The notes beneath the pieces were generated by a model, which searched no databases, was not told the DNA's origin, and worked only from the letters and a program-made list of their open reading frames with translations. Positions 2,194 through 55,200 of a DNA stretch of 64,000 nucleotides are shown in pieces. The position numbers and the translations under genes are program-made. How positions within the stretch are numbered: the stretch's first letter is position 1; every line of letters starts with the position of its first letter. Source of the DNA: Pegea sp. RAD2-039 (taxonomy: Eukaryota > Chordata > Thaliacea > Salpida > Salpidae). The stretch spans positions 248,001 to 312,000 of the forward strand of contig JAQGEQ010000003.1 of NCBI GenBank assembly GCA_034620365.1, given 5' to 3'.

Positions 2194-4692
2194 CTAGAGT
2201 CTTTTCTTGATCAGTTTTTCAAGTTTACGGATTCTAGATGAATCTGAATCATTTGTGACATTTGAACTTGTTCTCATTGGAGATGCTTTCATCATTTCCG
2301 GATTCAGCTGTGATTTCCTAAAAGCATCTAAGATTGATCCCTGTTCTATCTTCCTCAGACCTTTCATATCAATCACTTTTTGAACAGTATCTACATCAGC
2401 ATCAACTAGTAACCGGAAACAACTTGAAACGAACGCAGCAGTTGGTTCATGAGGAGTCATCACAACTTTAAGTAACATTTCAGCTTTTGTCATTCCTTTA
2501 ACAACAATCTTAGTATAAGACGAAGGAGCTTTACGTGCAACTTTTGATCCTATAGAAGGAAGATCTAGTAAAAGAGTCTTCAACGAATGGGCATCCAGAA
2601 GAAGTTGTTCCGCTCCAACAGTACCAATTGGTTTACATTTGCATAAATATGAAATGAACTTAGGTACAAATGAATTCGCGTACTTGATGCAAACTTGTGT
2701 GAAATATTTTCGTGCTGATGATAGATTAGAACGAATTAATGGAATGGTTTGCTTGACAGCTGATTCAATTGCGCTCACATAAACACTCTGATCACCAACA
2801 TGCTCTAACAAAGTCCAAGATTGTTTGGGCATCTCAATTAAAGCTTGTTCACTAACTGATCCGAGATCTTGTACTAGTAGATGAATACAATTAGATATGA
2901 CTGAAGTAAAAGCGTTGCGCTCTTCTGTAAGATTGATTCTACTCTTCAAAGATGCATCTACCTTCTCTCGTAGTTTTTCTTCTAACTGGTTGACTGTATC
3001 CAGACAATAATCGGATGTTGTGAGGATGGAGCAAGTGAGATTTAACTCTCCAGAGCTTAACCGGGAGTCTTGAATGTCTTTAGAGGTACTATCTTTCAGT
3101 AGAAGATTTGTAACTGATGATAGAGTGATGTTTTGTTGTGAAGTAACACGCGCAATTTTTGGGATGTTATTGATGAGAATTTTTGATGAATATTCGCGAA
3201 GGTGCTTTTGGAAGATATTAGCTAGTGCCACAAGTGGCTCACCTGTGCTGAGTTGTGAACATTGCATCATCCCTTTTTTATAATAAACAAATAAATCTGC
3301 ACAACTACTCAGGACTCCACTCTCACATGCTGCAGATGCTTTTCCACTTTTCAAATCTTCTGCTTGGATCTTAAAATCTTCTTGAAATCTTAAGATCAGC
3401 TCTTGTAAATTCCGATCTTGTGATTCAATGTAGATGTAGAGAAATGGTTCAAATGAGCTTGAGATGAGTCTCAAGAAAACATTTTGATCTTCTCCTCCTG
3501 CTGATGACTTTTCTGATTCTTCTTTCAAGTCTTCATCTTGTAAAAAGGGATTTTTTGATCTCTGTTCTTGATCTTCTTTGACTCGTAGAGATCCGCGATC
3601 TTTTAAAGTAATTCCGGAGAGTCTTTTAGAGAGCAAAGATTCAAAAGCTGTTGTACGTTGAATAGCAAATAGAAGAAGTTTCACATCAATTTCTTTACTT
3701 CGTTGCTTCATCACACAATTTAACTCTCGATTAGTTATTCGACAAAATTCCACCGCGATCCTCTCCGAGACTTCCCAACTTTTCGGGAAGATCGTTGAGT
3801 ACTTCTCCTCAAAGTTGACGAGGACACGTTTCACCCAAGCATACCTTCGATCAATCTTATCAAGCCAAGCCATATCTTGAGAAGCATCGAATAACACAAG
3901 ATACTCTGATAACTGATTCTTTACAAATTTACTCAGAAGTTCTCGTTTGACGGTAGGTTCTAAAACATCAGCTACTTCGCAAGCTTGTCGAAGTAAAGAT
4001 ATATTTATTGAAGAGCTTTTACTACTTGAAAACGCTCCGTCAAATTCTAATAGAACTAATCGAGTCAACGTCTCTTTGATATCTTTTACTTTTCGAGTCA
4101 AATCACGAATAGTATCTATCGATTTGTAGTTATCAAACTGTTCCATGACATTAAGGACACATTGCAATAAACCAGCAGCTTCACCAAAATCTTTTCGTCC
4201 AGTTAAAGTATTCAATTTCTCTACACAACTAATAACCATGTGTAAATGATTATGTGTTGTTATAGCTTGAGTTAAATTTCGTTTAGCAATATCTAATTGT
4301 TTGATATCACGAGTAATTTCTTCAACCATATGTTCTGATTGCTCTGCGCGGTCTTTGATACTTTTGATTTTAGTGAAAAGTTCTTGTATAGCTAACTGAG
4401 CTTCTTCTAAAGCTTTCTGTCCTTTGGAACCAGCGGTGGTCTGGTGTCTGACTGCTTGCTTGACACTTGTACTAAGATCAGTGATTCGATTCTCGACTTG
4501 TGTAACAACTTCATCAATATTTGAAAGTGATTGTTCATTTGGGAATAAAGAATTGATGTGATCAACAACATTGAAATCTGCGTTTTCTAGTGGGTCGTTG
4601 CTAGGGAAAACCTCATCTAAAACAGCTTGTACGTTGTCAGGGAAAGTGATTTCACATTGCAATTTCGTCTCTGTGGTGTTTTCGGATTCCAT
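2194..4692 (-). CDS. COG4: Conserved oligomeric Golgi complex subunit 4
   Basis: Subunit of lobe A of the COG tethering complex, which captures retrograde vesicles at the Golgi. One uninterrupted 832-residue ORF, close to the length of animal COG4 (about 785-790). The N-terminal third is heptad-rich and predicted coiled coil (roughly residues 45-130), as expected for the helix that assembles with COG2/COG3. The middle and C-terminal parts follow COG4 (for example LTRLVLLEFDGAF, FEPFLYIYIESQDRNLQELI). The single exon is notable for so long an animal gene when neighbours are split into many exons. The start is the ATG 23 nt after a TTTTTTTCAG acceptor-like site, and only 93 nt separate it from the stop of TIMM29 upstream. 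Confidence 0.95.
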   Translation of the reverse strand: MESENTTETKLQCEITFPDNVQAVLDEVFPSNDPLENADFNVVDHINSLFPNEQSLSNIDEVVTQVENRITDLSTSVKQAVRHQTTAGSKGQKALEEAQLAIQELFTKIKSIKDRAEQSEHMVEEITRDIKQLDIAKRNLTQAITTHNHLHMVISCVEKLNTLTGRKDFGEAAGLLQCVLNVMEQFDNYKSIDTIRDLTRKVKDIKETLTRLVLLEFDGAFSSSKSSSINISLLRQACEVADVLEPTVKRELLSKFVKNQLSEYLVLFDASQDMAWLDKIDRRYAWVKRVLVNFEEKYSTIFPKSWEVSERIAVEFCRITNRELNCVMKQRSKEIDVKLLLFAIQRTTAFESLLSKRLSGITLKDRGSLRVKEDQEQRSKNPFLQDEDLKEESEKSSAGGEDQNVFLRLISSSFEPFLYIYIESQDRNLQELILRFQEDFKIQAEDLKSGKASAACESGVLSSCADLFVYYKKGMMQCSQLSTGEPLVALANIFQKHLREYSSKILINNIPKIARVTSQQNITLSSVTNLLLKDSTSKDIQDSRLSSGELNLTCSILTTSDYCLDTVNQLEEKLREKVDASLKSRINLTEERNAFTSVISNCIHLLVQDLGSVSEQALIEMPKQSWTLLEHVGDQSVYVSAIESAVKQTIPLIRSNLSSARKYFTQVCIKYANSFVPKFISYLCKCKPIGTVGAEQLLLDAHSLKTLLLDLPSIGSKVARKAPSSYTKIVVKGMTKAEMLLKVVMTPHEPTAAFVSSCFRLLVDADVDTVQKVIDMKGLRKIEQGSILDAFRKSQLNPEMMKASPMRTSSNVTNDSDSSRIRKLEKLIKKRL

Positions 4693-4785
4693 ATTAAAAA
4701 ATAACTTCCTAATTTCTGAAAAAAATCATAAAGATATTTAATGAGGATATCATGAAACAAATTATTCAAATTATCTTTTATTTAT
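4693..4785 (-). promoter_or_regulatory. 93-nt TIMM29-COG4 intercistronic region with poly(A) signal and splice acceptor
   Basis: On the minus strand AATAAATAAA begins at the TIMM29 stop codon. About 60 nt later comes a polypyrimidine stretch ending TTTTTTTCAG (AG at plus 4717-4716), then a 23-nt leader and the COG4 ATG. This is the arrangement seen between genes of trans-spliced operons. The spacing and motifs are seen directly; trans-splicing is inferred. Confidence 0.6.
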
Positions 4786-17487: not shown

Positions 17488-20400
17488 TTATTGAATTGAG
17501 CTAGATATGTTTCTAAATATTAAACTTTTTGCAATCATAAAAATAGTATCAATGATTAAAAAGCTCGTAGCAGTTACTACCGTTCTTGTGAAGAAACCAG
17601 GAAAATTTCTACATTCAGCTGGAAAAGCGTTGTACATTTCAATGTGGTAAGCAAGTGAGACAATCAAGTGCTTTTCTCCTAATATACTGCCATTCAAGGC
17701 TTTGATTGCATTCTTTGCTTGAATAGAAGTCTGGAAAGTAATAAAAGCAAACCCTCGCTGGATTCCTTTATTTCTCACCACCTACAACTGATTCATAAGA
17801 AGTACGTTCGACTGATACGTTTCTTACTTACACGAACTTTTCGAATTATTCCATAAGCTGAAAATGCCTTCCACAAGACCATCTCGTCAAGATCATACGG
17901 AAAGTTTTTCACGTACAAACAGCAATACTTAGATCTTCTGATCTCATTCAAATCGACTTTTTTAACAACGCGCGCGCTCTTCTGTTGCATGCGGCATACT
18001 GTTATCGACTGTAAGATATCTCCAACTAAAATAGTTCGAAGTTGAAATTCATATCAATTTTCAGCATTTGACCGCAAGGTGGCGCTAGTGAGAACTTACT
18101 TTTCACAATGCGATGCTGAAGAATATTCAGAGCATTCTTGGCATCTTGATGCAGATAAAAAGACACAAATCCAAATCCCATTGAGTTTCCAAACTCGTCT
18201 TTCGCAATTTTAATTTTTCGTATGTCCCCATACTCCTAAAAATTGAGTATTGCCCTCTCGCCAGTAGATATCAAATCATTTACCTGAAATATCTCTCTGA
18301 TATCCTCTTCAGTGGTATCAGGGTTAAAATCTTTGATGTAGAGATTTGTGAAGTTAAAACACGAGTTAGACTTCAACGCTGCGTCACGTGATTCCAGTTT
18401 CACAAACTTCGAAACAAAAACTTTGCGATCTCCAAGACACGAACCATTCATCTATAAACAATTCAATAAGATACAAATCTAAAGACTAGATCTTTACCTT
18501 TTTGATCGCTTCAAGTGCTGCCTCTTTTTTATCAAAGCAAATAAATCCGTACCCCTTAGATCTATTATCAACTGTTTTACAAACCTACAAACAATTCAAA
18601 CGTTTAGTTGATGTTAGTCGGATTTTACCAGCTGTTTCACCAACTTTGCAAGAAATAATTTCCCCGAAGTCGAGAAAAGCCTCGTACAGTTCTTTATTAT
18701 CTATCTGGGCATCTAAGTTTTCGATGAAAATGTTTTGATGCTCAAAATGATGTTGAAGAACTCGTTTTTCAAGCCACTCAGTTATCCGAATCGACCAACC
18801 ATTGACACGCTGATAATTCAGTTCCTTTACTACTTGTTTTAAGTAATTTTCTGCAGAAGAAATTTAAATTTAATGAATTGAGAATTATTTTTATACCTTC
18901 GGTTTGTTGGTCGAAAATAATCTTAGCAAAGTTTGAGGCTTTTGGATATCGTTGATGCAACAGAACCCTTTTGATACTCAATTTTTTATTAAATATCTCT
19001 TTAATATTGTTCTCATTTAGGTTTGGATGGAGATCACCAACAAAGATATCAAGCTTTTGCTAAGTAACAAATCATAAATTAGTGCTAGGCCATTATTTAA
19101 AAACGCCATTTAAGTGAAAAATTAAAAGATCGAACCTTTGGACTATTGACTGGATCAAACTTTCTTCTATCTTCTGGAGACATAACTAAGGAGACGTAAA
19201 TAATTTTACCTTCTATCTCAACTTCATGAAGATCAACAATAGAAGATTGTGCATCTTCAGCTATCTTGAAGCACACAAACCCGAAGCATTTACTTTTTCC
19301 ATTCTCATTAAGCATCACCTTTAAATTGAAAGATTAGAAAGAATGAACTCCTTGAAAATACTGACTTTAGTGTTTTTGATTTCTCCATATTTTGAAAATA
19401 ATTTTTTCAGTTTTTCATCATTGAAATGTTCAGGAATATTTTTGATAAAAACGTTTCGATCTTTAGATTCTTCCTTCAAGGCTTTCTTCAGAGTTAAGAA
19501 TTCCTTTTTTAAATAAATCAAACGATCATGCTTCTTCTGTGCAGCTGATATATACAAAGCTCGATCGTCTGGGAGTAATAATTAAAGCTTTTATCGACTT
19601 TTATGTTCTCAACTCACTTATGCTAAGCTTCTTTTCATTCTTCACCGCCAAGCGAGCATCTTCACATCTTTTAAAGCTCACAAATCCAAATTTCTTGGAC
19701 TTACCATCCTTCTCTCTTCCAATAAACACACTTTGTATTTCTCCATAAACCTATCATATGAAGCTGTTAGTAGATAAGAGATTAAAGCTTCAAATCTATC
19801 GAACTTTAAAAACATTGTTCAAATGTTCTTCATCAACAGTTTCATTGAAATTTTTCACATATACTTGCGTGAATTCCACACTACTAGTACGCTCAGAGCG
19901 ACGTTTGAATTTTTGGATATCTATTTTCTTCCCATTTAATGGCAGTCCATTAATCTAACAACACAACCGATATCAAAGTGGGCTTTATTATTGAAAACTA
20001 ACTTCTTCTACAGCATAATCAGCCAAAGCTTCATTCTCAAAGTGGATATATCCGTATCCTTTAGAAACATTATTTTCATCGGTTGCAACCTAAATTTTCA
20101 TTTTTAGACATTTGTAGACTTGTGCTAGTAACAAATAATACCTTGCATGATAGAATATTTCCAATATTTGAGAAAAAGTCATATAAAGTTCTTGTGTCTA
20201 TAGAACTATCTAAATTTTTGATGAAAATATTACCACCTTTGGATTCGATTGATGTAGGGTCAGATATCTTATGCATAACTCTCATTGGTCGTTCAAAAAA
20301 TAGAGAATAGTTAAATAGATCTATTGCAAGTTGAGCTGAAAAAATTGATGTTTAGTTACTTCAAAAATAGTTGAGATCTCACCATCTGAAGAATACAGGT

Positions 20401-20566
20401 AATTTACATATCCATATGTCAATGACTTTCCTGTAACTACATCTTTACAAATCCGAACTGAAGTCACAACTCCAGTTTCAGAAAACTTTTCATAAAGATT
20501 AGTTTCGGTTACATCTGGATGCAGGTTACCAACGTAGAGAGATAATCTAGGTCTAACCAATTCCAT
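17488..20566 (-). CDS. Poly(A)-binding-protein-like protein with eight RRMs
   Basis: Predicted RNA-binding protein of about 793 residues in 14 exons: 20566-20383, 20335-20142, 20089-20003, 19954-19805, 19750-19618, 19568-19366, 19318-19136, 19059-18897, 18850-18645, 18584-18498, 18451-18284, 18235-18100, 18025-17832, 17781-17488. Residues 1-378 match PABP RRM1-4 in order ([55 protein letters not shown]). Residues 379-793 repeat the same four ([56 protein letters not shown]). RNP1 motifs are good in RRM2-4, 6 and 7 ([45 protein letters not shown]) and degenerate in RRM5. There is no MLLE/PABC domain; the C-terminus is instead hydrophobic. The ATG is 2 nt after TTTGAATTTTTAG. Confidence 0.87.
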
Positions 20567-20712
20567 TTCTAAAAATTCAAATTTTTCAATTTATTTCAAG
20601 TTACTTAAAAACTAAAGAAAAACGTAGAAGACACAATCTAACAAAAGCTTTAGTTTGTAATTTTTTGGTCCTGTAAAGAATCAAATGATTTAAAGTTTTA
20701 ATTTTTTTATTT

Positions 20713-20896
20713 TATATATATAAATGCGAAGGAGGGTGCCTAAAGAGAGCACATCTCACTAACACACATTCTCAGGAGTTTTTGTATAGTTTTTCTCAGG
20801 AGTTTTATATGTCTCCACCTGGGGTCGAACCCGGTACTTCCTAGCTAGATGTACCTTGTAGCTAGGTTTAGTAACCGCTTCGCCACCAAGCAGGAC
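20713..20896 (-). mobile_element. tRNA-derived SINE, copy 2 (antisense, better preserved)
   Basis: On the minus strand: head GTCCTGCTTGGTGGCGAAGC with a full A-box (TGGCGAAGCGG), the CCTAGCTA/TAGCTAGG hairpin, B-box GGTTCGACCCC, then GAGAATGTGTGTTAGTGAGA, GGCACCCTCCTTCGCATTTA and an AT tail. It is nearly identical to the copy at 9733-9912 apart from the A-box region. No clear target-site duplication could be picked out by eye. Confidence 0.88.
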
Positions 20897-21714
20897 GCTA
20901 AGAAAGCTACGAAAGTCATAGTTTTACTTAGAAAGAATTTACACAAACTTTATTCAGATAATCTGTCAATAAACATGAATTACATTTTTAATGATTAGTT
21001 TAATGTATACATGCAAAGAAAGGGATTTTTATAAAAGTATTTTATATAGTTTTAGTAAAACCATTAAATTAAGAATAATTACTTGATAACTAAAAAAAAA
21101 CGTTTATATAACATCCAAATTATTACCCAATACTGATACTTAATAAGTAGTAGTTAACACTTAGAACCAAACAATTTTAAGTCTATATATAGAACTTTAT
21201 AAATATCTAAAACAAAAAAGCTAAAAATAATTTACCAATTTTCAGATGTTGTCGAAGTTAGGGTAAGTTGCACGGTAGTTGCTTGAAAAAATGAATGTTG
21301 CCTCATAAATGTGATTTCTTTTATTGTCTGAAGAAAACAGCAGAAGCATTCACAGAAATTTCAAAACTACAAACTTAAATTTAAAAAAGTAATGATCTAC
21401 TTTATAAAAGTGTAATCTTCAAAAAAATCATTTTCATATGCTGAAAAAAAAATAAACTTGATTAAAAAGAAGCTTTTATTCAACTGACAAAAACTTTGAT
21501 TATCTAAGCTTTTTTAAGTTAAAATTACTTAAGATTTATTTTGTGTATTTATGCGTCCAATTTTTTATTTCAAAATTTTTACAGTTAATATCCAGTTGTA
21601 CTGAACAGATAAAAACGACGATTGTAGATAAAAAAGTCAAATTTTCTGAAATGATTTCATCCAAATTTTAACCAAGATATCTAGCAACTTACTTGTCTCA
21701 ATCTATTTCTAATT
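20897..21714. other. Gap between SINE and LINE, nothing recognised
   Basis: AT-rich with no ORF. It may carry the promoter of the eight-RRM gene, separated from it by the SINE. Confidence 0.35.
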
Positions 21715-22545
21715 TCTATTTAGGAAGAGAAAGTGCAGTTTTATCTTCACCTAGCAAGAAAACGTTTTTTGGTTTCATAAATCGCAAGCTTAAGGCGAGA
21801 TCTCAAATAGCTCCCCTAATTGATAACAGCAACCAGCTTGTGATGGAACCAGAAAATAAAGCTGAATAGCTAAATAATCGATTCAATAGCGTTTTTAGAA
21901 CCGATGATGGCAATACTTCTTCTCTTTCCTACTCCGACATTCTTACAAATGTCTCTGAGATGATAGATCTTGACATAACGGCTGGTATGGCAGCTAAAGC
22001 TATTTCTTCTTTAAAATCATCAGTTTCCAACACCCCAGATCAGATCCCAGCTTTGTTTTTAAAAAAACTGCTTCCTCTTTATTACTACCTTTATCGCTTT
22101 TCTTTAACAAGACTCTGAGGCGAGGAAGAGTTCCACCAATATAGTTATATACCTTACACACATTACACCTTAATAAGCCTATATCACCTAGTACATTGGT
22201 TAGAGCAAATTTTTTCTCATACCGTACAATTAATACATGGAATCAGCTGCCATCAGACATTGCCATGTCGAAGTCACTCGCATTGTTGAAACAGAAGTTG
22301 AACCGTTATAATATTGCCAACATTACATTTCTAAACTGTGAATTTTTCCTTTTTTATATTATTAACATTCTATGTAATTGTTCACTGTTATTTGCTTTGA
22401 GTGATATCGAAATACCATGTGTTACATCTTTTACTTTCTATATTTTTGACTTAATAGATGTTATTTGTGAGAATGTGTGTTAGCGAGAGGTACTCTTTTC
22501 AGGCACCCTCCTTTGCATTTATTGAAATAAATAAATATAATGCCA
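21715..22545 (+). mobile_element. LINE copy with internal deletion of the reverse transcriptase
   Basis: The 5' part encodes the pre-RT segment also found at 45.4-45.7 kb on the minus strand (NQLVMEPENKAE, then NNRFNSV, DDGNT, SYSDILT), interrupted by an in-frame stop. Near 22140 the sequence jumps to the extreme C-terminus typical of LINE ORF2 (FSYRTINTWNQLPSDIAMSK, from 22196) and the 3' UTR ending CAGGCACCCTCCTTTGCATT. The RT core is absent. It is non-functional. Confidence 0.85.
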
Positions 22546-26000: not shown

Positions 26001-27105
26001 CATCTTCCCCAACACAAGTCAGAATCAATTTTCACAAATCCCGCCCTCTAGTGACAACTTTATTCATCTTAGATCTCCAACCGCCAATGAACGCTTCTCA
26101 AATGCCATTCGTCAGCCTCCGTTTAGTGATGACGTCACCAAAATACGCGAGACTCGACAAAAGATCGAAAAAGAAGAAGAAGATGCAAAGTATCTCGCGT
26201 TTATCAACGATGTCGCTTCTGACATTTTGTCACGTGGTATCTACTCGAACAGGTAGATCGATGTGACGTCATCAACACATGACGTCATCCCTAATTTCAA
26301 TAGAGTGCTGATGAAGACGATGGAAAGACATCTTCAGTCGCGATTACATGATCTAGATGAGATGAGGATGCGACAAATGTTAAAAGAGCTTCGCGATGGG
26401 CTTGGTATTGTTTCCGAGTCATGTGACTTGCTACAAACTCCTATTGTTCCCGATGTCTCTAAACGCGACTCAAGTTTGCAAAAATCTTCCGCGAGTCCGG
26501 ATTCGTTTGGAAATTCGCTCAATTATTTGTCTTCTGCAAATTATCAGGGAACTGGATCTTGTAGATCTGATGAAACAGATTATTTATCTGTTGCTGATCT
26601 TGCTACCGTCATAAAAGCTCCTAATGATGAGCAAATTGTTGATGAAGATTTGCTGAAGGAAGATCTTAAAATTGAAGATCTTACTAAATATAAGGATCTC
26701 GCTAAAGATGAAGATCTGACTAAAGATGAAGATCTAACAAGAGATGAAGATCTAACAAAAGATGAAGATCTCACTAAAGATGAAGATCTCACTAAAGATG
26801 AAGATCTAACAAGAGATGAAGATCTTACTAGAGATGAAGATGTCACTAGAGATGAAGATCTCACTAAATACGAAGATCTCACTAGAGATGAAGATCTAAC
26901 AAGAGATGAAGATCTTACTAGAGATGAAGATCTCACTAAAGATGAGGATCTCACTAAATACGAGGATTTTTCTAAGAAAACTGTTTCTTTTCAAGATGAA
27001 GATTCTTCTGAAGATGAGGATTCGTTTGTCATCAAAACTGAAGATAGAAAATCTTGTGATGAAGATTATGATTACAGCGATGACTTTACAAATGATGAAT
27101 TCTGA
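23020..27105 (+). CDS. SPATA7: SPATA7 orthologue (ciliary transition-zone protein)
   Basis: In vertebrates SPATA7 works at the photoreceptor connecting cilium with RPGRIP1. Exons 23020-23083, 23602-23691, 23744-23856, 24368-24744, 25910-25996, 26052-26252, 26304-27105; phases agree; 577 residues (human 599). Conserved blocks: SLRGHMALNSSSLK, LIQDQMTSHYYNLATIKSA, KKQDQKRRNAIIKEL; GDYLDRHSNRF with AFTPRTKKRKATSYLSKSRH; DAKYLAFINDVASDILSRG, then MERHLQSRLHDLDEMRMRQM. The acidic C-terminus holds 16 hexapeptide repeats. Two introns are very short (55 and 51 nt). The 25996/26052 junction is partly a choice: a donor 21 nt downstream keeps frame too, with a 34-nt intron. An unrelated ORF lies inside the intron 24745-25909. 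Confidence 0.88.
25241..25864 (+). CDS. Unrecognised 207-residue ORF nested in a SPATA7 intron
   Basis: Complete ATG-to-TGA ORF lying wholly within the 1165-nt SPATA7 intron, same strand. It is unlikely to be a SPATA7 exon: the flanking exons join in phase without it, the codon formed at its nearest acceptor would be a stop, and it matches nothing in the family. The protein is basic and mostly helical. Hydrophobic positions alternate in LRSLLLQLRKFILKTVNYEQ, and a segment TNKPPPSLTTNIQPLG is followed by WKQVQQNCSRSLMEILLKAY. That layout reminds me of helical domains in mobile-element proteins, but I cannot name a family. AGCTAGTATCAG ends right at its ATG. It could be a host gene, a domesticated element fragment or a chance ORF, though 207 codons is long for this AT content. 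Confidence 0.5.
   Translation: MKKLKKVTMSLYQCCKVRNINKNNHLIKKSPCTLRSLLLQLRKFILKTVNYEQLYNEMETCIRTNKPPPSLTTNIQPLGVAIPDDSTLSKQWKQVQQNCSRSLMEILLKAYKKEITETVKQRRNKRIEIIDMIVAKSECSRSQIINSLDKWVISVTKNAQKNKKIRVGKVTCGSSRRIRSMSAVCDEYDRLLEELFFRRLLNIRSET
26674..26961 (+). repeat. In-frame 18-bp coding minisatellite in SPATA7 (16 units)
   Basis: Sixteen copies of an 18-nt unit (GATGAAGATCTCACTAAA and variants) encode the hexapeptide EDLTKD with K/R and D/Y variation. No unit breaks frame. Synonymous and conservative variants are interspersed, so it is not a very recent single burst. The unit adds an alternating acidic/basic tract to the SPATA7 C-terminus. Confidence 0.95.
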
Positions 27106-44224: not shown

Positions 44225-45700
44225 TTTATTTATTTGTTTATTACAATAAATGCAAAGGTGCCTGAAGAGATATCACCATTTTTGATATCACTAATTTGAT
44301 ATGGCATCCATACACTGACATTGTATTCAAGAATTGGACGTAGGTACAGATCGAAAAGATTGATAAAAAAGCATGGTTTCATAGAATTAAAGGTCTTTAT
44401 AATAAGGAAGACAAGGTTGATTGATTTTCGAAAGATTTTGGAGACATAATTGCACCATTTAAAGTCAGATGATAGACTAATGCCGAGGTCTAGGACCGAA
44501 GATACTCGTTGAATAATAAATCTATTGATGGAGTATTGGTTCGAGGAATTTACAGCTGGTTTACGAGAAAAGTTTATAAGTACAGACTTCGTGGGCTGGA
44601 TTCTGAGCTGCCAATTCGTTGACCAGTTTTCTACAACGTTTAGTGCAGTTTGAAGTTTTGAAGGATTACAAGATAATATCTTGTCTGCATACACAGACAC
44701 TCTGACATCATCTACTGCTACCAGTCTTCTGATGAAGTCTTCAATGAAAATTAAAAAGAGAAGGGGACCCAGAACAGAACCCTGAGGAACACCACTAGTG
44801 ATTTGACTAGAAGTAGATAAAGATCTTTCTACACGAGTTTGTTGGGTTCTACCTGATAAGTAATCTTCAATCCACTGTAAGATAAAGATATTGATTTTTA
44901 AGTTTTTCAATACAGTAACGAGCTTAGTGTGTGGGACAGAATCAAACGCTTTAGCAAAATCGAGGTATATGATGTCACAAGGAGTATCACTTTCATAATG
45001 GGCTGTAAGCTCATTAAGAAAAGTGAGATGTTGAGTCAGGGAAGATCTTCGTTTCACAAAGCCATGTTGGACATCAGATATTAGATGGTGCTCCATCAAA
45101 TGTCTGGTCATATGATTGTGAATGATATGCTATTGAGTTCTGCAGAAAACTGAAGTCAGCGAAACTGGTCTGTAGTTAAGTGCGGTATTTCTGGGACCCT
45201 TCTTATGAATTGGAGTAATAATAGCTTTCTTCCAAATTTGTGGAACTCTTCCTCGCCTCAGAGTCATGATAAAGAGTCATTAAAGAAAAGCAATAAAGGT
45301 AGTGTGATAAAGATTATTTTCTTCTTAAAAACAAAGCTGGGATCTGATCTAAGGTGTTAGAAACTGATGATTTTAAAGAAGAGATAGACTTAGATACCAT
45401 ATCGACCGTTATGTCAAGATCTATGTCATCTCAGAGACAGTTGTGAGAATGTCGGAGTAGGAAAGAGAAGGAGTATTGCCATCATCGGTTATAAAAACGC
45501 TATTGAATCGATTATTTAGCAACTCAGCTTTATTTTCTGGTTCCATCACAAGCTGGTCTTTATTGAAAAAAAAGTTGACGGAATCATTTTCATTAAACCA
45601 ATATAAACAAATCTGTTGCTTGTTGTTCAAAACAGTTTTTGCTTCTAATAAATGTTTATAATTTATATTCATCATATTGATATATCATTATTAGGTTTTT
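44225..45700 (-). mobile_element. Degenerate LINE with reverse transcriptase (CR1/Jockey-like)
   Basis: The pre-RT segment is at 45675-45421 (QLVMEPENKAELLNNRFNSV, DDGNTPSLSYSDIL). Most of the RT domain is one ORF at 45111-44230: IYLDFAKAFDSVPHTKLV, SGVPQGSVLGPLLFLIFIED, WSTNWQLRIQPTKSVLI, DLGISLSSDFKW. The catalytic YADD box reads VYADKILSC: two residues including the second Asp are lost. Frame is broken between the two segments. After the RT it jumps to the 3' tail (CAGGCACC, TTTGCATTTATTG, then TAAATAAATAAA). It is non-autonomous and the same family as the copies at 9.4 and 21.7 kb. Confidence 0.9.
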
Positions 45701-49298: not shown

Positions 49299-52200
49299 AT
49301 GGCTTCAGTTGAAGATGAAGATGATGCTTTGAGTAAAGTTATGGGTTTTGGAGGGTTTGGGAAGAAAAGTAGGAAATTTGATTTTAAAGCGATCTTTGAA
49401 GAAACGAGAAGAAATGCTCAAGAACGAAACCAGAAAAATATCGGTTAGTTCATAATTGATCCTCCTAAAATCCTATTTCAACTAATTCGCGCTTCTAGAA
49501 GTTGTGACGTCATTAAATTCATGAAATTAACGGAAGCTGTCAAAATATCAACAAATTTTAATGAGTTGTAAATAAATCCAAACTTTTCACAAAGATCTAT
49601 TACCAACTCCTCTTATATCTGGATCTCTTTACTGAATATTCGAGTCTTTATCGAATCTTAAAACACTTGAGCAATAATTTCAAAGTTTTTTAATTTAAAA
49701 TCAACAAATTACTTTATTTCACAGAGAGGCTTCAAATTGAAGAAGAAATTATCAGAAGTGGAGCCAGCGTTGTTGTGAATACCGAATCTGAAAAGTAAAT
49801 TTGAAATTTATCCAAAAATTTCACTTATCTGAAAAAAAATATTCCATAAAGTAAATCAGATGACGTCATACGACCTCCAAAATCAACCAGCCAATCAGAA
49901 GACGAGGATGAGACGCTAATAGGTCCTCCGATCCCTAAGAACCAATCAGAAGATGAAGAAGAACCAATAATTGGGCCACCAATTCCAACCAACCAATCAG
50001 AAGATGAAGACGAAGATGACGTCACAAACGAAGACGAAGAGGTCCTAATATGGAAATTGGTGGCAAAAATGTCTAATTTTATTTATATTAAAACAGACGA
50101 ACGACTTTTTTATTCCATTATCCCATGAAATTGTACTTTCACATGGAATGAAACCAGTGACTGCTCTTTCAGTAGAACCGGCTGGATGCAGACTTGTTTC
50201 TGGTGGTCAAGACTTTAATATGAAATTCTGGGATTTGGCGGGAATGAATAATTCACTTCAATCCTTTCGTGAATTATCGCCTTGTGATTGGTGGGTTTTT
50301 TTACATCAATAAATATTGTCTTGAAAGGTTTATTTCTAAACACCTCAGCACCTTAAGTGGCTGAAATATTTTTAAAATAATTTATTTATAAATATTATAT
50401 TTATATATATAACTAATATTTGATATTAATAATTTAAATGTTATTTTTTTAATATTAGTGAATATGAAATATTTTCTTCTAAGTTCAAACACCTAAACCT
50501 TTTTATCAAACGCTTATCTTCTTTTTCTTGCAGTCACAACATGGTGAGATTAGAGTTTAGCTCAACTGGTAAATATATTTTAGTGATAGCATCAAATTCA
50601 CAAGCTAAAGTTTATGATAGGGATGGTTATGAGTTACTTCAATGTGTAAAAGGGGATCAATATCTAAATGATATGTACAACACAAAAGTAAGTTGCTCTT
50701 CTTCTAATCTTCTGATCTTCATCTTCTTATATTCATCTTCTAATCTTCATCTTTTAATTTTCATCTTCTGATCTTGATCTTCTGATCTTCATCTTCTAAT
50801 CTTCATCTTCTAATCTTGATCTTCTGATCTTCATCTTCTGATCTTCATCTTCTAATCTTCATCTTCTGATCTTCATCTTCTAATCTTCATCTTCTGATCT
50901 TCTAATCTTCATCTTCTGATCTTCATCTTCTAATCTTCATCTTCTAATCTTCATCTTCTAATCTTCATCTTCTAATCTTCATCTTCTAATCTTCATCTTC
51001 TGATCTTCATCTTCTGATCTTCATCTTCTGATCTTCATCTTCTAATCTTCATCTTCTAATCTTCATCTTCTAATCTTGATCTTCTGATCTTCATCTTCTA
51101 ATCTTCATCTTCTAATCTTGATCTTCTGATCTTCATCTTCTAATCTTCATCTGATCTTCATCTTCTGATCTCTATCATCGGATTTTTGATCTTCATCTTC
51201 TGATCTCTATCATCGGATCTTTGATCTTCATCTAGGGACACACAGCGATGCTCAATGATGGATGTTGGAATCCAATCAATAAAGAAGAATTCTTAACTTG
51301 CTCAAATGATGGAACAATCAGAACCTGGGATGTTTTCAGACGAGGCAAAGAGTCAAAAGTAAATACTGCTCTCTGATTGGACGATCTTTCTCATGTATTA
51401 TGTTTGCAGATGATTCGTAAATGTCGCGATAAATCGGGTAGACGGACACAACCGATTTGTTGTTGCTATAGTAACGACGGAAAGCTATTAGCTACTGCTT
51501 CAAATGATGGCTCCGTTTTATTGTGGGATGAAAAGAAGAAGGTTTTTGCTTGTTTGTTACGATTGTTGCTTGTTTGTTACGATTGTTGCTTGTTTGTTAC
51601 GATTGTTGTTTGTTACGATTGTTGCTTGTTTATTACGATTGTTGTTTGTTTGTTACGATTGTTGTTGTTACGATTGTTGTTTGTTTGTTACGATTGTTGT
51701 TTGTTTGTTACGATTGTTGCTTGTTTGTTACGATTGTTGTTTGTTACGATTGTTGCTTGTTTATTACGATTGTTGTTTGTTTGTTACGATTGTTGTTGTT
51801 ACGATTGTTGTTTGTTTGTTACGATTGTTGCTTGTTTGTTACGATTGTTGTTTGTTACGATTGTTGTTCGTTTATTACGATTGTTGTTTGTTTGTTACGA
51901 TTGTTGTTGTTACGATTGTTGTTTGTTTGTTACGATTGTTGTTTATTACGATTGTTGCTTGTTTGTTACGATTGTTGCTTGTTTGTTACGATTGTTGTTT
52001 GTTTGTTACGATTGTTGTTTGTTTGTTTGTTTGTTACGATTGTTGCTTGTTTGTTACGATTGTTGTTCGTTTGTTACGATTGTTGTTTGTTTGTTACGAT
52101 TGTTGTTTGTTTGTTACGATTGTTGTTTGTTTGTTACGATTGTTGTTTGTTACGATTGTTGTTTGTTTGTTAAGATTGTTGTTCGTTTGTTACGATTGTT

Positions 52201-55200
52201 GTTTGTTTGTTACGATTGTTGTTGTTTGTTACGATTGTTGCTTGTTTGTTACGATTGTTGCTTGTTTGTTACGATTGTTGTTTGTTACGATTGTTGTTTG
52301 TTTGTTACGATTGTTGTTTGTTACGATTGTTGCTTGTTTGTTACGATTGTTGTTTGTTTGTTACGATTGTTGCTTGTTTGTTACGATTGTTGTTTGTTTG
52401 TTACGATTGTTGTTTGTTACGATTGTTGCTTGTTTGTTACGATTGTTGTTTGTTTGTTTGTTTGTTACGATTGTTGCTTGTTTGTTACGATTGTTGTTCG
52501 TTTGTTACGATTGTTGTTTGTTTGTTACGATTGTTGCTTGTTTGTTACGATTGTTGTTTGTTACGATTGTTGTTTGTTACGATTGTTGCTTGTTACGATT
52601 GTTGTTCGTTTGTTACGATTGTTGTTTGTTTGTTACGATTGTTGTTGTTTGTTACGATTGTTGCTTGTTTGTTACGATTGTTGCTTGTTTGTTACGATTG
52701 TTGTTTGTTACGATTGTTGTTTGTTTGTTACGATTGTTGTTTGTTACGATTGTTGCTTGTTTGTTACGATTGTTGTTTGTTTGTTACGATTGTTGCTTGT
52801 TTGTTACGATTGTTGTTTGTTTGTTACGATTGTTGCTTGTTTGTTACGATTGTTGCTTGTTTGTTATGATTGTTGCTGTTTATTACGATTGTTGTTTGTT
52901 ACGATTGTTGTTCGTTTTTACGATTGTTGTTTGTTACGATTGTTGTTTGTTACGATTGTTGTTTGTTTGTTATTACGGTTGTTGTTTGTTTGTTACGATT
53001 GTTGTTTGTTTGTTACGATTGTTGTTTGTTACGATTGTTGTTTGTTTGTTACGATTGTTGTTCGTTTTTACGATTGTTGTTTGTTACGATTGTTGCTTGT
53101 TACGATTGTTGTTTGTTACGATTGTTGTTTGTTACGATTGTTGTTTATTACGATTGTTGCTTGTTTGTTACGATTCTTGTTTGTTTGTTACGATTGTTGT
53201 TTGTTTGTTACGATTGTTGCTTGTTACGATTGTTGTTTGTTACGATTGTTGTTTGTTACGATTGTTGTTCGTTTGTTACGATTGTTGTTTGTTTATTACG
53301 ATTGTTGCTTGTTTGTTACGATTCTTGTTTGTTTGTTACGATTGTTGTTTGTTTGTTACGATTGCTGTTTGTTTGTTACGATTGTTGTTTGTTACGATTG
53401 TTGTTTGTTTGTTACGATTGTTGTTCGTTTTTACGATTGTTGTTTGTTACGATTGTTGCTTGTTACGATTGTTGTTTGTTACGATTGTTGTTTGTTACGA
53501 TTGTTGTTTATTACGATTGTTGCTTGTTTGTTACGATTCTTGTTTGTTTGTTACGATTGTTGTTTGTTTGTTACGATTGCTGTTTGTTACGATTGTTGTT
53601 TGTTATGATTGTTGTTTGTTACGATTGTTGTTTGTTTGTTACGATTGTTGTTTGTTACGATTGTTGTTTGTTTGTTACGATTGTTGTTCGTTTTTACGAT
53701 TGTTGTTTGTTACGATTGTTGCTTGTTACGATTGTTGTTTGTTACGATTGTTGTTTGTTACGATTGTTGTTTATTACGATTGTTGCTTGTTTGTTACGAT
53801 TCTTGTTTGTTTGTTACGATTGTTGTTTGTTTGTTACGATTGCTGTTTGTTACGATTGTTGTTTGTTTGTTACGATTGTTGTTTTTACGATTGTTGTTTT
53901 TACGATTGTTGTTTGCTATGATTGTTGTTTGTTATGATTGTTGTTTGTTTATTACGATTGTTGTTTGTTTGTTACGATTGTTGTTTGTTTGTTACGATTG
54001 TTGTTTGTTTGTTACGATTGTTGTTTGTTTGTTACGATTGTTGTTTGTTATGATTGTTGTTTGTTTGTTACGATTGTTGCTTGTTTGTTACGATTGTTGC
54101 TTGTTTGTTACGATTGTTGTTTGTTATGATTGTTGTTTGTTACGATTGTTGCTTGTTTGTTACGATTGTTGTTGTTACGATTGTTGTTTGTTATGATTGT
54201 TGTTTGTTATGATTGTTGTTTGTTTATTACTATTGTTGTTTGTTTGTTACGATTGTTGTTTGTTTGTTACGATTGTTGTTTGTTTGTTACGATTGTTGTT
54301 TGTTTGTTACGATTGTTGTTTGTTACGATTGTTGTTTGTTTGTTACGATTGTTGCTTGTTTGTTACGATTGTTGTTTGTTTGTTACGACTGTTGTTTGTT
54401 TGTTACGATTGTTGTTTGTTACGATTGTTGTTTGTTTGTTACGATTGTTGTTTGTTTGTTACGATTGTTGTTTGTTACGATTGTTGTTTGTTTGTTACGA
54501 TTGTTGTTTGTTTGTTACGATTGTTGTTTGTTTGTTACGATTGTTGTTTGTTTGTTACGATTGTTGTTTGTTACGATTGTTGTTTGTTACGATTGTTGTT
54601 TGTTACGATTGTTGTTTGTTTGTTACGATTGTTGTTTGTTACGATTGTTGTTTATTACGATTGTTGTTTGTTACGATTGTTGCTTGTTTGTTACGATTGT
54701 TGTTTGTTATGATTGTTGTTTGTTACGATTGTTGTTTGTTACGATTGTTGCTTGTTTGTTACGATTGTTGCTTGTTTGTTATGATTGTTGTTTGTTATGA
54801 TTGTTGTTTGTTTATTACGATTGTTGTTTATTACGATTGTTGTTTTTACGATTGTTGTTTGCTATGATTGTTGTTTGTTTGTTACGATTGTTGTTTGTTA
54901 CGATTGTTGTTTATTACGATTGTTGTTTGTTACGATTGTTGCTTGTTTGTTACGATTGTTGTTTGTTATGATTGTTGTTTGTTACGATTGTTGTTTGTTA
55001 CGATTGTTGCTTGTTTGTTACGATTGTTGCTTGTTTGTTATGATTGTTGTTTGTTATGATTGTTGTTTGTTTATTACGATTGTTGTTTGTTTATTACGAT
55101 TGTTGTTTATTACGATTGTTGTTTTTACGATTGTTGTTTGCTATGATTGTTGTTTGTTATGATTGTTGTTTGTTATTACGATTGTAGTTTACTTTTTTAT

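Follow-up and report, generated by a model that had tools for sequence, protein, structure and literature searches.

Gene Structure of the Locus

The window, a stretch of 64,000 nt from the tunicate Pegea sp. RAD2-039, carries on its minus strand a PABP-like gene composed of two consecutive units (table 1). The exon sizes proposed in a preliminary description of this DNA (184, 194, 87, 150, 133, 203, and 183 nt for unit 1; 163, 206, 87, 168, 136, 194, and 294 nt for unit 2) were placed by a splice search starting at the ATG at 20566 and allowing GT or GC donors, AG acceptors, introns of 40–109 nt, and an open frame. Exactly one solution was obtained for the 14 sizes, from 20566 to 17488 on the minus strand, where a TAA closes a frame of 793 aa, in agreement with the single 14-exon frame previously described. 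All 13 donors are GT and the introns range from 46 to 76 nt. The phases at the exon ends are 1, 0, 0, 0, 1, 0, 0 in unit 1, and the six internal introns of unit 2 show 1, 0, 0, 0, 1, 0; the series 1, 0, 0, 0, 1, 0 described for both units is thus found in each.

The frame in use is open over 2,379 coding nt, whereas the other two frames of the coding sequence contain 54 and 89 stops. In random sequence with the exons' own base composition, the chance of such openness is ~4e-15 for unit 1 (378 codons) and ~1e-13 for unit 2 (375 codons). The gene is located in a contig of 1.2 Mb and is single copy in the genome (105.7 Mb in 387 contigs searched; 57 of the 67 candidates scored): 11 of the 33 genome matches fall in the gene itself and five in the canonical PABPC, the latter being 33–59% identical to the fused gene. 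The acceptor next to the start ATG is probably a spliced-leader site or the end of a 5′-UTR intron. Similarly, the ATG of the canonical PABPC is preceded by an AG at a distance of 4 nt.

Table 1. Features of the PABP-like gene and their positions in the window
Feature	Position	Strand	Basis
Entire coding region, eight RRMs in 793 aa over 14 exons; no MLLE found	17488..20566	minus	unique splice solution; single copy in genome
Strong 3′ splice acceptor (GAATTTTTAG/AA), 2 nt before start ATG	20567..20570	minus	6.3 bits vs 99th percentile of −1.1 for all AG
Unit 1, exons 1–7, RRM1-4, 378 aa	19136..20566	minus	splice solution, unit alignment, class HMMs
Unit 1, exons 1–4	20566-20383, 20335-20142, 20089-20003, 19954-19805	minus	
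Unit 1, exons 5–7	19750-19618, 19568-19366, 19318-19136	minus	
Intron 7, predicted fusion junction, 76 nt, phase 0, AAG/GTTCGA...TTACTTAG/CAAAAG	19060..19135	minus	splice-matrix scores
Unit 2, exons 8–14, RRM1 (degenerate)-2-3-4, 415 aa	17488..19059	minus	splice solution, unit alignment, class HMMs
Unit 2, exons 8–11	19059-18897, 18850-18645, 18584-18498, 18451-18284	minus	
Unit 2, exons 12–14	18235-18100, 18025-17832, 17781-17488	minus	
Candidate extra intron inside exon 14, 68 nt, phase 0, 22 aa after RRM4	17513..17580	minus	splice scores

Exon 14 may contain a further phase-0 intron, in which case the protein would have 766 aa and end in ...FFTRT-KHI. The acceptor of this candidate scores 4.5 bits and its donor 1.6 bits, below all 18 comparison donors. 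Its removal would eliminate a hydrophobic C-terminal stretch (residues ~767–785; mean Kyte-Doolittle value of 1.77 over 19 residues). This stretch has the highest hydropathy in the whole protein and, given also the weak donor of the intron that would remove it, it could be a real part of the protein serving as a membrane anchor. On the contrary, the stretch corresponds to an intron of typical size, and at this place the other two PABP copies also have a phase-0 intron behind RRM4 (the first such intron of the canonical gene, 27 aa after RRM4, and intron 7, 15 aa after it). Moreover, translated stop-free intron pieces of this gene reach similar hydropathy (up to 2.02, in a piece of 14 residues). 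A membrane anchor is therefore considered doubtful.

Domain Content

Class-specific HMMs built from other PABPs order the RRMs as 1-2-3-4-1-2-3-4, in accordance with the two four-RRM sets of the preliminary description, with two soft spots. The RRM4 of unit 1 is a near tie (82.1 bits with the RRM3 model vs 79.4 bits with the RRM4 model), and the RRM1 of unit 2 is weak (17.8 bits), the RRM1 model still being the best and the next one scoring 8.1 bits. The Pfam RRM_1 model gives 409 bits over the whole protein, with seven stretches individually significant. Four consecutive RRMs of classes 1-2-3-4, by which a PABPC is recognized, are present twice. Among solved structures, the best match to the whole protein is chain 6r5k_D, from a cytoplasmic and nuclear polyadenylate-binding protein (query residues 8–369, E 4e-86).

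RRM2 is the best-kept domain in both units. The identities of RRM1/2/3/4 to the canonical PABPC of the same genome are 0.54/0.64/0.35/0.36 for unit 1 and 0.26/0.55/0.36/0.36 for unit 2. The RNP1 of the RRM1 of unit 2 reads FAKIIF in place of the canonical YAYVNF, as its reported loss of a normal RNP1 implied. The divergence in RNA binding that had been suggested from this loss is plausible mainly for that one domain, whereas the other seven RRMs appear to keep the aromatic residues of RNP1 and RNP2, as judged by eye. In a passage of PMC9753129, the double change M161A/D165K in RRM2 of PABPC1 is described as abolishing the contact with eIF4G. The aligned residues, located by counting on a fish PABP (P0017), are L/E in the canonical copy, which thus departs too, L/G in unit 1, and S/D in unit 2.

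In a six-frame search carried out exon by exon, through which an MLLE split by an intron could escape, the MLLE profile found no match in the fused gene, consistent with the domain's previously noted absence, and matched only two places in the genome: the canonical PABPC and a second locus. Moreover, no linker of the PABPC type follows unit 1 or unit 2. Since neither linker nor MLLE is found, the predicted protein is a PABPC-derived paralog and not a complete PABPC.

The second genomic MLLE is located at G000:C88:199997-200245, where the match has one in-frame stop. By analogy it would be UBR5/EDD-like, EDD being named as the only other MLLE protein in a passage of PMC9753129.

Predicted Fusion Junction and Spliced Leaders

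In the predicted gene, the two units are joined by intron 7, which at 76 nt is the longest of the 13 introns (the others have 46–74 nt). With a splice matrix trained on 18 comparison introns, intron 7 being left out, its donor scores 7.7 bits (5.3–10.4 in the comparison introns) and its acceptor 2.9 bits, just under the comparison range (3.0–10.3) but well above AGs in general (99th percentile of −1.1). If the intron is retained, 12 extra codons are followed by an in-frame stop, and a four-RRM protein of 390 aa results. It is thus conceivable that the fused transcript is real but that its main product is this shorter protein of unit 1, the eight-RRM form being a minor isoform. The acceptor score, the lowest of the set, and the clean stop after retention are in favor of this, but unit 2 has stayed open and PABP-like through a long divergence, and such a minor role for the eight-RRM form appears improbable.

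Spliced leaders of the Ciona type exist in this genome. The 16-nt Ciona leader followed by GT has 585 genome sites with up to two mismatches, compared with 77 for the reversed control. A tandem array of SL RNA genes (L033, G000:C4:1135044-1142219) contains 33 exact copies with a spacing of mostly 197–200 nt, and a further array (L035) is located at C11:1-2500; the SL exon of the repeats is identical to that of Ciona, and GTAAGTGTCTATCAGGAGTAATCTCCTATTTT comes next in the most frequent type. Over the first 60 nt of the four most frequent SL repeat types, a search for the Ciona Sm motif AGCTTTGG and for several variants gave no match. Six dispersed single copies of the SL exon with GT (L027-L032) have 3′ flanks unlike those of the array, several of them with ATAGGTTATAGG-like sequence, and are candidates for SL pseudogenes or for SL exons carried by repeats.

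These arrays make an operon pair a serious rival to the fusion. In this case, unit 1 would stop inside 19135-19060, giving the 390-aa protein, and the mRNA of unit 2 would receive a spliced leader at 19059. The preliminary description had named two separate mRNAs as the refutation of a single gene, and could not weigh the operon arrangement, which is real in tunicates. According to PMC7986045, the source of the Ciona leader sequence, this leader serves at least 58% of expressed Ciona genes and the median spacing within operons is 1 bp. About 20% of Ciona genes are placed in operons with abutting genes, and gene models often join the members of such a pair into one gene by mistake, according to passages of PMC2760879 and PMC7986045. 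The locus has several corresponding traits, that is, the spacing of 76 nt, an acceptor placed just before RRM1, much as an AG precedes the start codon in unit 1 and in the canonical copy, and an AATAAT at 19097 that is a possible weak poly(A) signal.

The start of unit 2, however, does not fit a separate cistron. The leader has no ATG and exons 8–10 hold none in frame, which extends the earlier observation of an ATG-less first exon. Even with a Ciona leader in front, no in-frame ATG is met before codon 153, with which exon 11 opens, 456 nt past 19059 and late in RRM2. A protein started there would be devoid of RRM1 and of the larger part of RRM2, the domain that is best conserved in this unit. 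The only ATGs ahead of this codon are three that lie out of frame and open ORFs of 12, 6, and 3 codons. In addition, neither AATAAA nor ATTAAA occurs within the 76-nt junction. Unit 2 thus has no start codon of its own behind the trans-splice acceptor, as an operon cistron would, and two cistrons are regarded as unlikely.

Two further ways of starting unit 2 were dropped. An alternative first exon inside intron 7, with an ATG near 19104 and spliced from the next GT, leads to the wrong frame (worked out by hand). The spliced leader of flatworm type ends in AUG; the leader of the host tunicate has no ATG.

Since unit 2 is unable to start a complete protein of its own even with a spliced leader of the Ciona type, one fused eight-RRM gene is the best reading of the sequence, with a probability of roughly 0.8. 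The fusion is favored over separate cistrons but not proven, the length and acceptor score of intron 7 and the AATAAT in the junction being points against it.

Origin of the Two Units

Units 1 and 2 are 29% identical along nearly the whole RRM part (E 4e-43). This divergence argues against a collapsed or duplicated assembly artefact. By eye, five of the six introns shared by the units each fall in the same alignment column; the exception is intron 5, whose two positions differ by a few codons within one variable loop of RRM3.

The genome has one copy of the canonical PABPC, with four RRMs and an MLLE (ATG at G000:C1:2497191). It has counterparts of introns 1, 2, 5, and 6 of the units, that of intron 5 being shifted by a few codons but equal in phase and loop, whereas introns 3 and 4 are common to both units and absent from the canonical copy. 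Since the latter shares four of the six introns, most of the common structure is the PABP ground plan and is no proof that one unit was copied from the other. The tandem duplication that had been concluded from the phase series is therefore supported in part, by the two introns private to the pair, which may be ancestral, but not by the remaining four. For each of the four RRMs, both units are more similar to the canonical copy than they are to one another.

The phylogeny proposed in the preliminary description was computed on four-RRM units. The tree has 38 rows, namely 33 proteins hand-picked from the 195 listed matches of two PABP searches, two halves of the Camellia protein P0002 (see below), the two units, and the canonical copy. 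Both units are located on long branches (1.29 and 2.18 changes per column) with no starred placement, and a clade of the two was not recovered in this tree. The AU test gave P values of 0.10 for unit 1 with unit 2, 0.20 for unit 1 with the canonical copy, 0.094 for unit 2 with the canonical copy, 0.076 for all three together, and 0.33 for animals with both units, none of the five being rejected at 0.05. Neither a recent duplication of unit 1 nor an independent origin of the units is shown by the tree or by these tests. Tandem duplication would be the simplest history, on the basis of the adjacency of the units and their two private introns.

The proposed course starts with a tandem PABPC pair, in which a deletion would have taken away the end of copy 1 (linker, MLLE, stop, and poly(A) site) together with the beginning of copy 2. 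Such a deletion would span from the post-RRM4 intron of copy 1 to the 5′ flank of copy 2, and the second ATG would have been lost at once or later. The junction could then have been formed in two ways. In the first, the donor of the post-RRM4 intron of copy 1 would now be used with the acceptor in the 5′ part of copy 2, originally that of a spliced leader or of a UTR intron. The donor of intron 7 lies 15 aa after RRM4 (27 aa for the phase-0 intron of the canonical gene, with the donor GCT/GTAAGT), and its acceptor sits before the RRM1 of unit 2 at a place matching that of the AGs found 2 nt ahead of the unit 1 ATG and 4 nt ahead of the canonical one. A 1-nt exon set by the aligner in the canonical linker is false, and the donor GCT/GTAAGT is unaffected by it. 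In the second way, the post-RRM4 intron would have remained intact and the break would lie at the start of exon 8 or inside it. After the AG, CAAAA opens exon 8 as well as the linker exon of the canonical gene, a 5-nt match found by eye that counts in favor of the second way but may be due to chance.

Relation to Known Proteins

The whole-protein search gave 2070 matches (from the 7992 candidates sharing most words), of which the best 120 were listed, and the search with unit 2 gave 75, all listed. A PABP with eight RRMs was found neither among the best 120 of 2070 nor among the 75 of 75, where P0001-P0005 were judged by a Pfam scan and the remaining matches by length and name. None appears either in the titles and abstract openings of the open PMC papers listed on PABP architecture, on PABP in tunicates, and on trans-splicing and operons (15 of 37 and 12 of 27 papers for the last subject).

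A canonical PABPC has four RRMs, a proline-rich linker, and an MLLE, whereas the fused gene has eight RRMs, with linker and MLLE not found. The fused gene shares the order of RRM1-4 and, as far as judged by eye, most RNP motifs with canonical PABPC1 and the canonical copy of this genome. In the comparison of introns, made with the genome's own copy, a phase-0 intron soon after RRM4 is also shared.

The two best matches of the whole-protein search, among the matches listed, are PABP-like proteins of Camellia sinensis, P0001 (1052 aa) and P0002 (977 aa). Like the fused gene, each has tandem PABP RRM units in one annotated protein without MLLE, but the number of RRMs by Pfam is seven. P0002 shows the order R1-2-3-4-1-2-4, its second unit being devoid of RRM3, and a long repetitive C-terminus. 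The two units of P0002 are sisters with a support of 100/99, which indicates that the Camellia fusion is independent of the tunicate one. The Camellia proteins are thus a precedent and a separate case, itself known as annotation only. Two other matches with five RRMs and repeated PABP pieces, P0003 of Acipenser and P0004 of Scortum (joined to 14-3-3), look like annotation faults.

Multiple RRMs in one chain are also found in RBM19, which has six. Its partial entry P0153 (952 aa) matches 38% of unit 2 at 28% identity and is not derived from PABP. Among vertebrate PABP paralogs, PABPC5 and PABPC4L have four RRMs, and PABPC5 is not known to have an MLLE. Both stand beside the canonical PABPC1, as named in a passage of PMC9753129, and differ from the fused gene in that no fusion is involved. 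The operon pairs of Ciona described in parts of PMC2760879 resemble this locus as same-strand tandem genes within 100 bp in a tunicate that uses spliced leaders, but their cistrons are separate genes with their own starts, unlike unit 2.

Proposed Function

Judging from the features of the sequence, the locus is rather probably a single protein-coding gene of a tunicate, a divergent eight-RRM paralog of PABPC devoid of MLLE, which would have arisen by tandem duplication and deletion-fusion and would coat long poly(A) or A-rich stretches. The opposite view, that a PABP tandem pair has here become a pseudogene, in decay or without function, could refer to the very long branches of the units, the degenerate RRM1 of unit 2, and the absence of an orthologous protein among the matches listed (best 120 of 2070 for the whole protein, 75 of 75 for unit 2). 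It is very unlikely in view of 793 codons free of stops and frameshifts, 13 GT-AG introns, and the selective conservation of the RNP motifs and RRM2 at a divergence where a neutral frame would not survive.

For the predicted eight-RRM protein, the RNP motifs that are intact by eye in seven RRMs suggest that unit 1 and the RRM2-4 of unit 2 would bind poly(A) or A/U-rich RNA in series, the RRM1 of unit 2 being decayed. Two RRM sets would give a longer footprint and a higher avidity than those of an ordinary PABPC, and the lack of MLLE would keep PAM2 proteins (eRF3, PAN3, Paip2, and GW182) from being recruited. The protein would thus work on long tails beside the normal PABPC, coating them or competing for them in particular tissues or stages. 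This role is tentatively proposed from the domain content.

A more speculative proposal is that a chordate PABP with eight RRMs and no MLLE would be a tandem clamp on long poly(A), shielding it from the deadenylation and termination factors recruited through PAM2. Such a protein would owe its origin to a deletion after which the 5′ acceptor of the downstream duplicate, previously serving the spliced leader, was used in cis, so that a would-be operon pair became one gene.

The arrangement of four RRMs and an MLLE is among the most conserved architectures in eukaryotes. A natural doubled PABP devoid of MLLE would separate the coating of poly(A) from the recruitment of PAM2 factors, and would offer a test of footprint length against tail length and deadenylation. 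If the reading is true, an operon-like tandem pair was resolved into a fused gene in an animal with spliced leaders; multidomain proteins can arise by this route, which is readily mistaken for a fault of annotation.

Other Features of the Window

A VPS53 gene is located at 2194-4725 as one intronless ORF of 832 aa, whereas the PABP genes of this genome are intron-rich. Over 2197-4692, it is 65% identical to the protein of Clavelina lepadiformis, 63% to that of Phallusia, 56% to that of Styela, and 54–56% to those of vertebrates, among the matches listed. The ORF at 26257-27105 includes many six-residue repeats of the type DEDLTK/DEDLTR. A T-rich short tandem repeat of ~3.4 kb (CLLRLLFVTIVV...) occupies 51377-54867, is open in several frames, and shows a GC skew of up to 0.54. 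By eye, the ORFs at 44230-45129 and 21870-22118 resemble pieces of retrotransposon reverse transcriptase, and an apparent tRNA-like SINE lies near 20740-20900, upstream of the fused gene.
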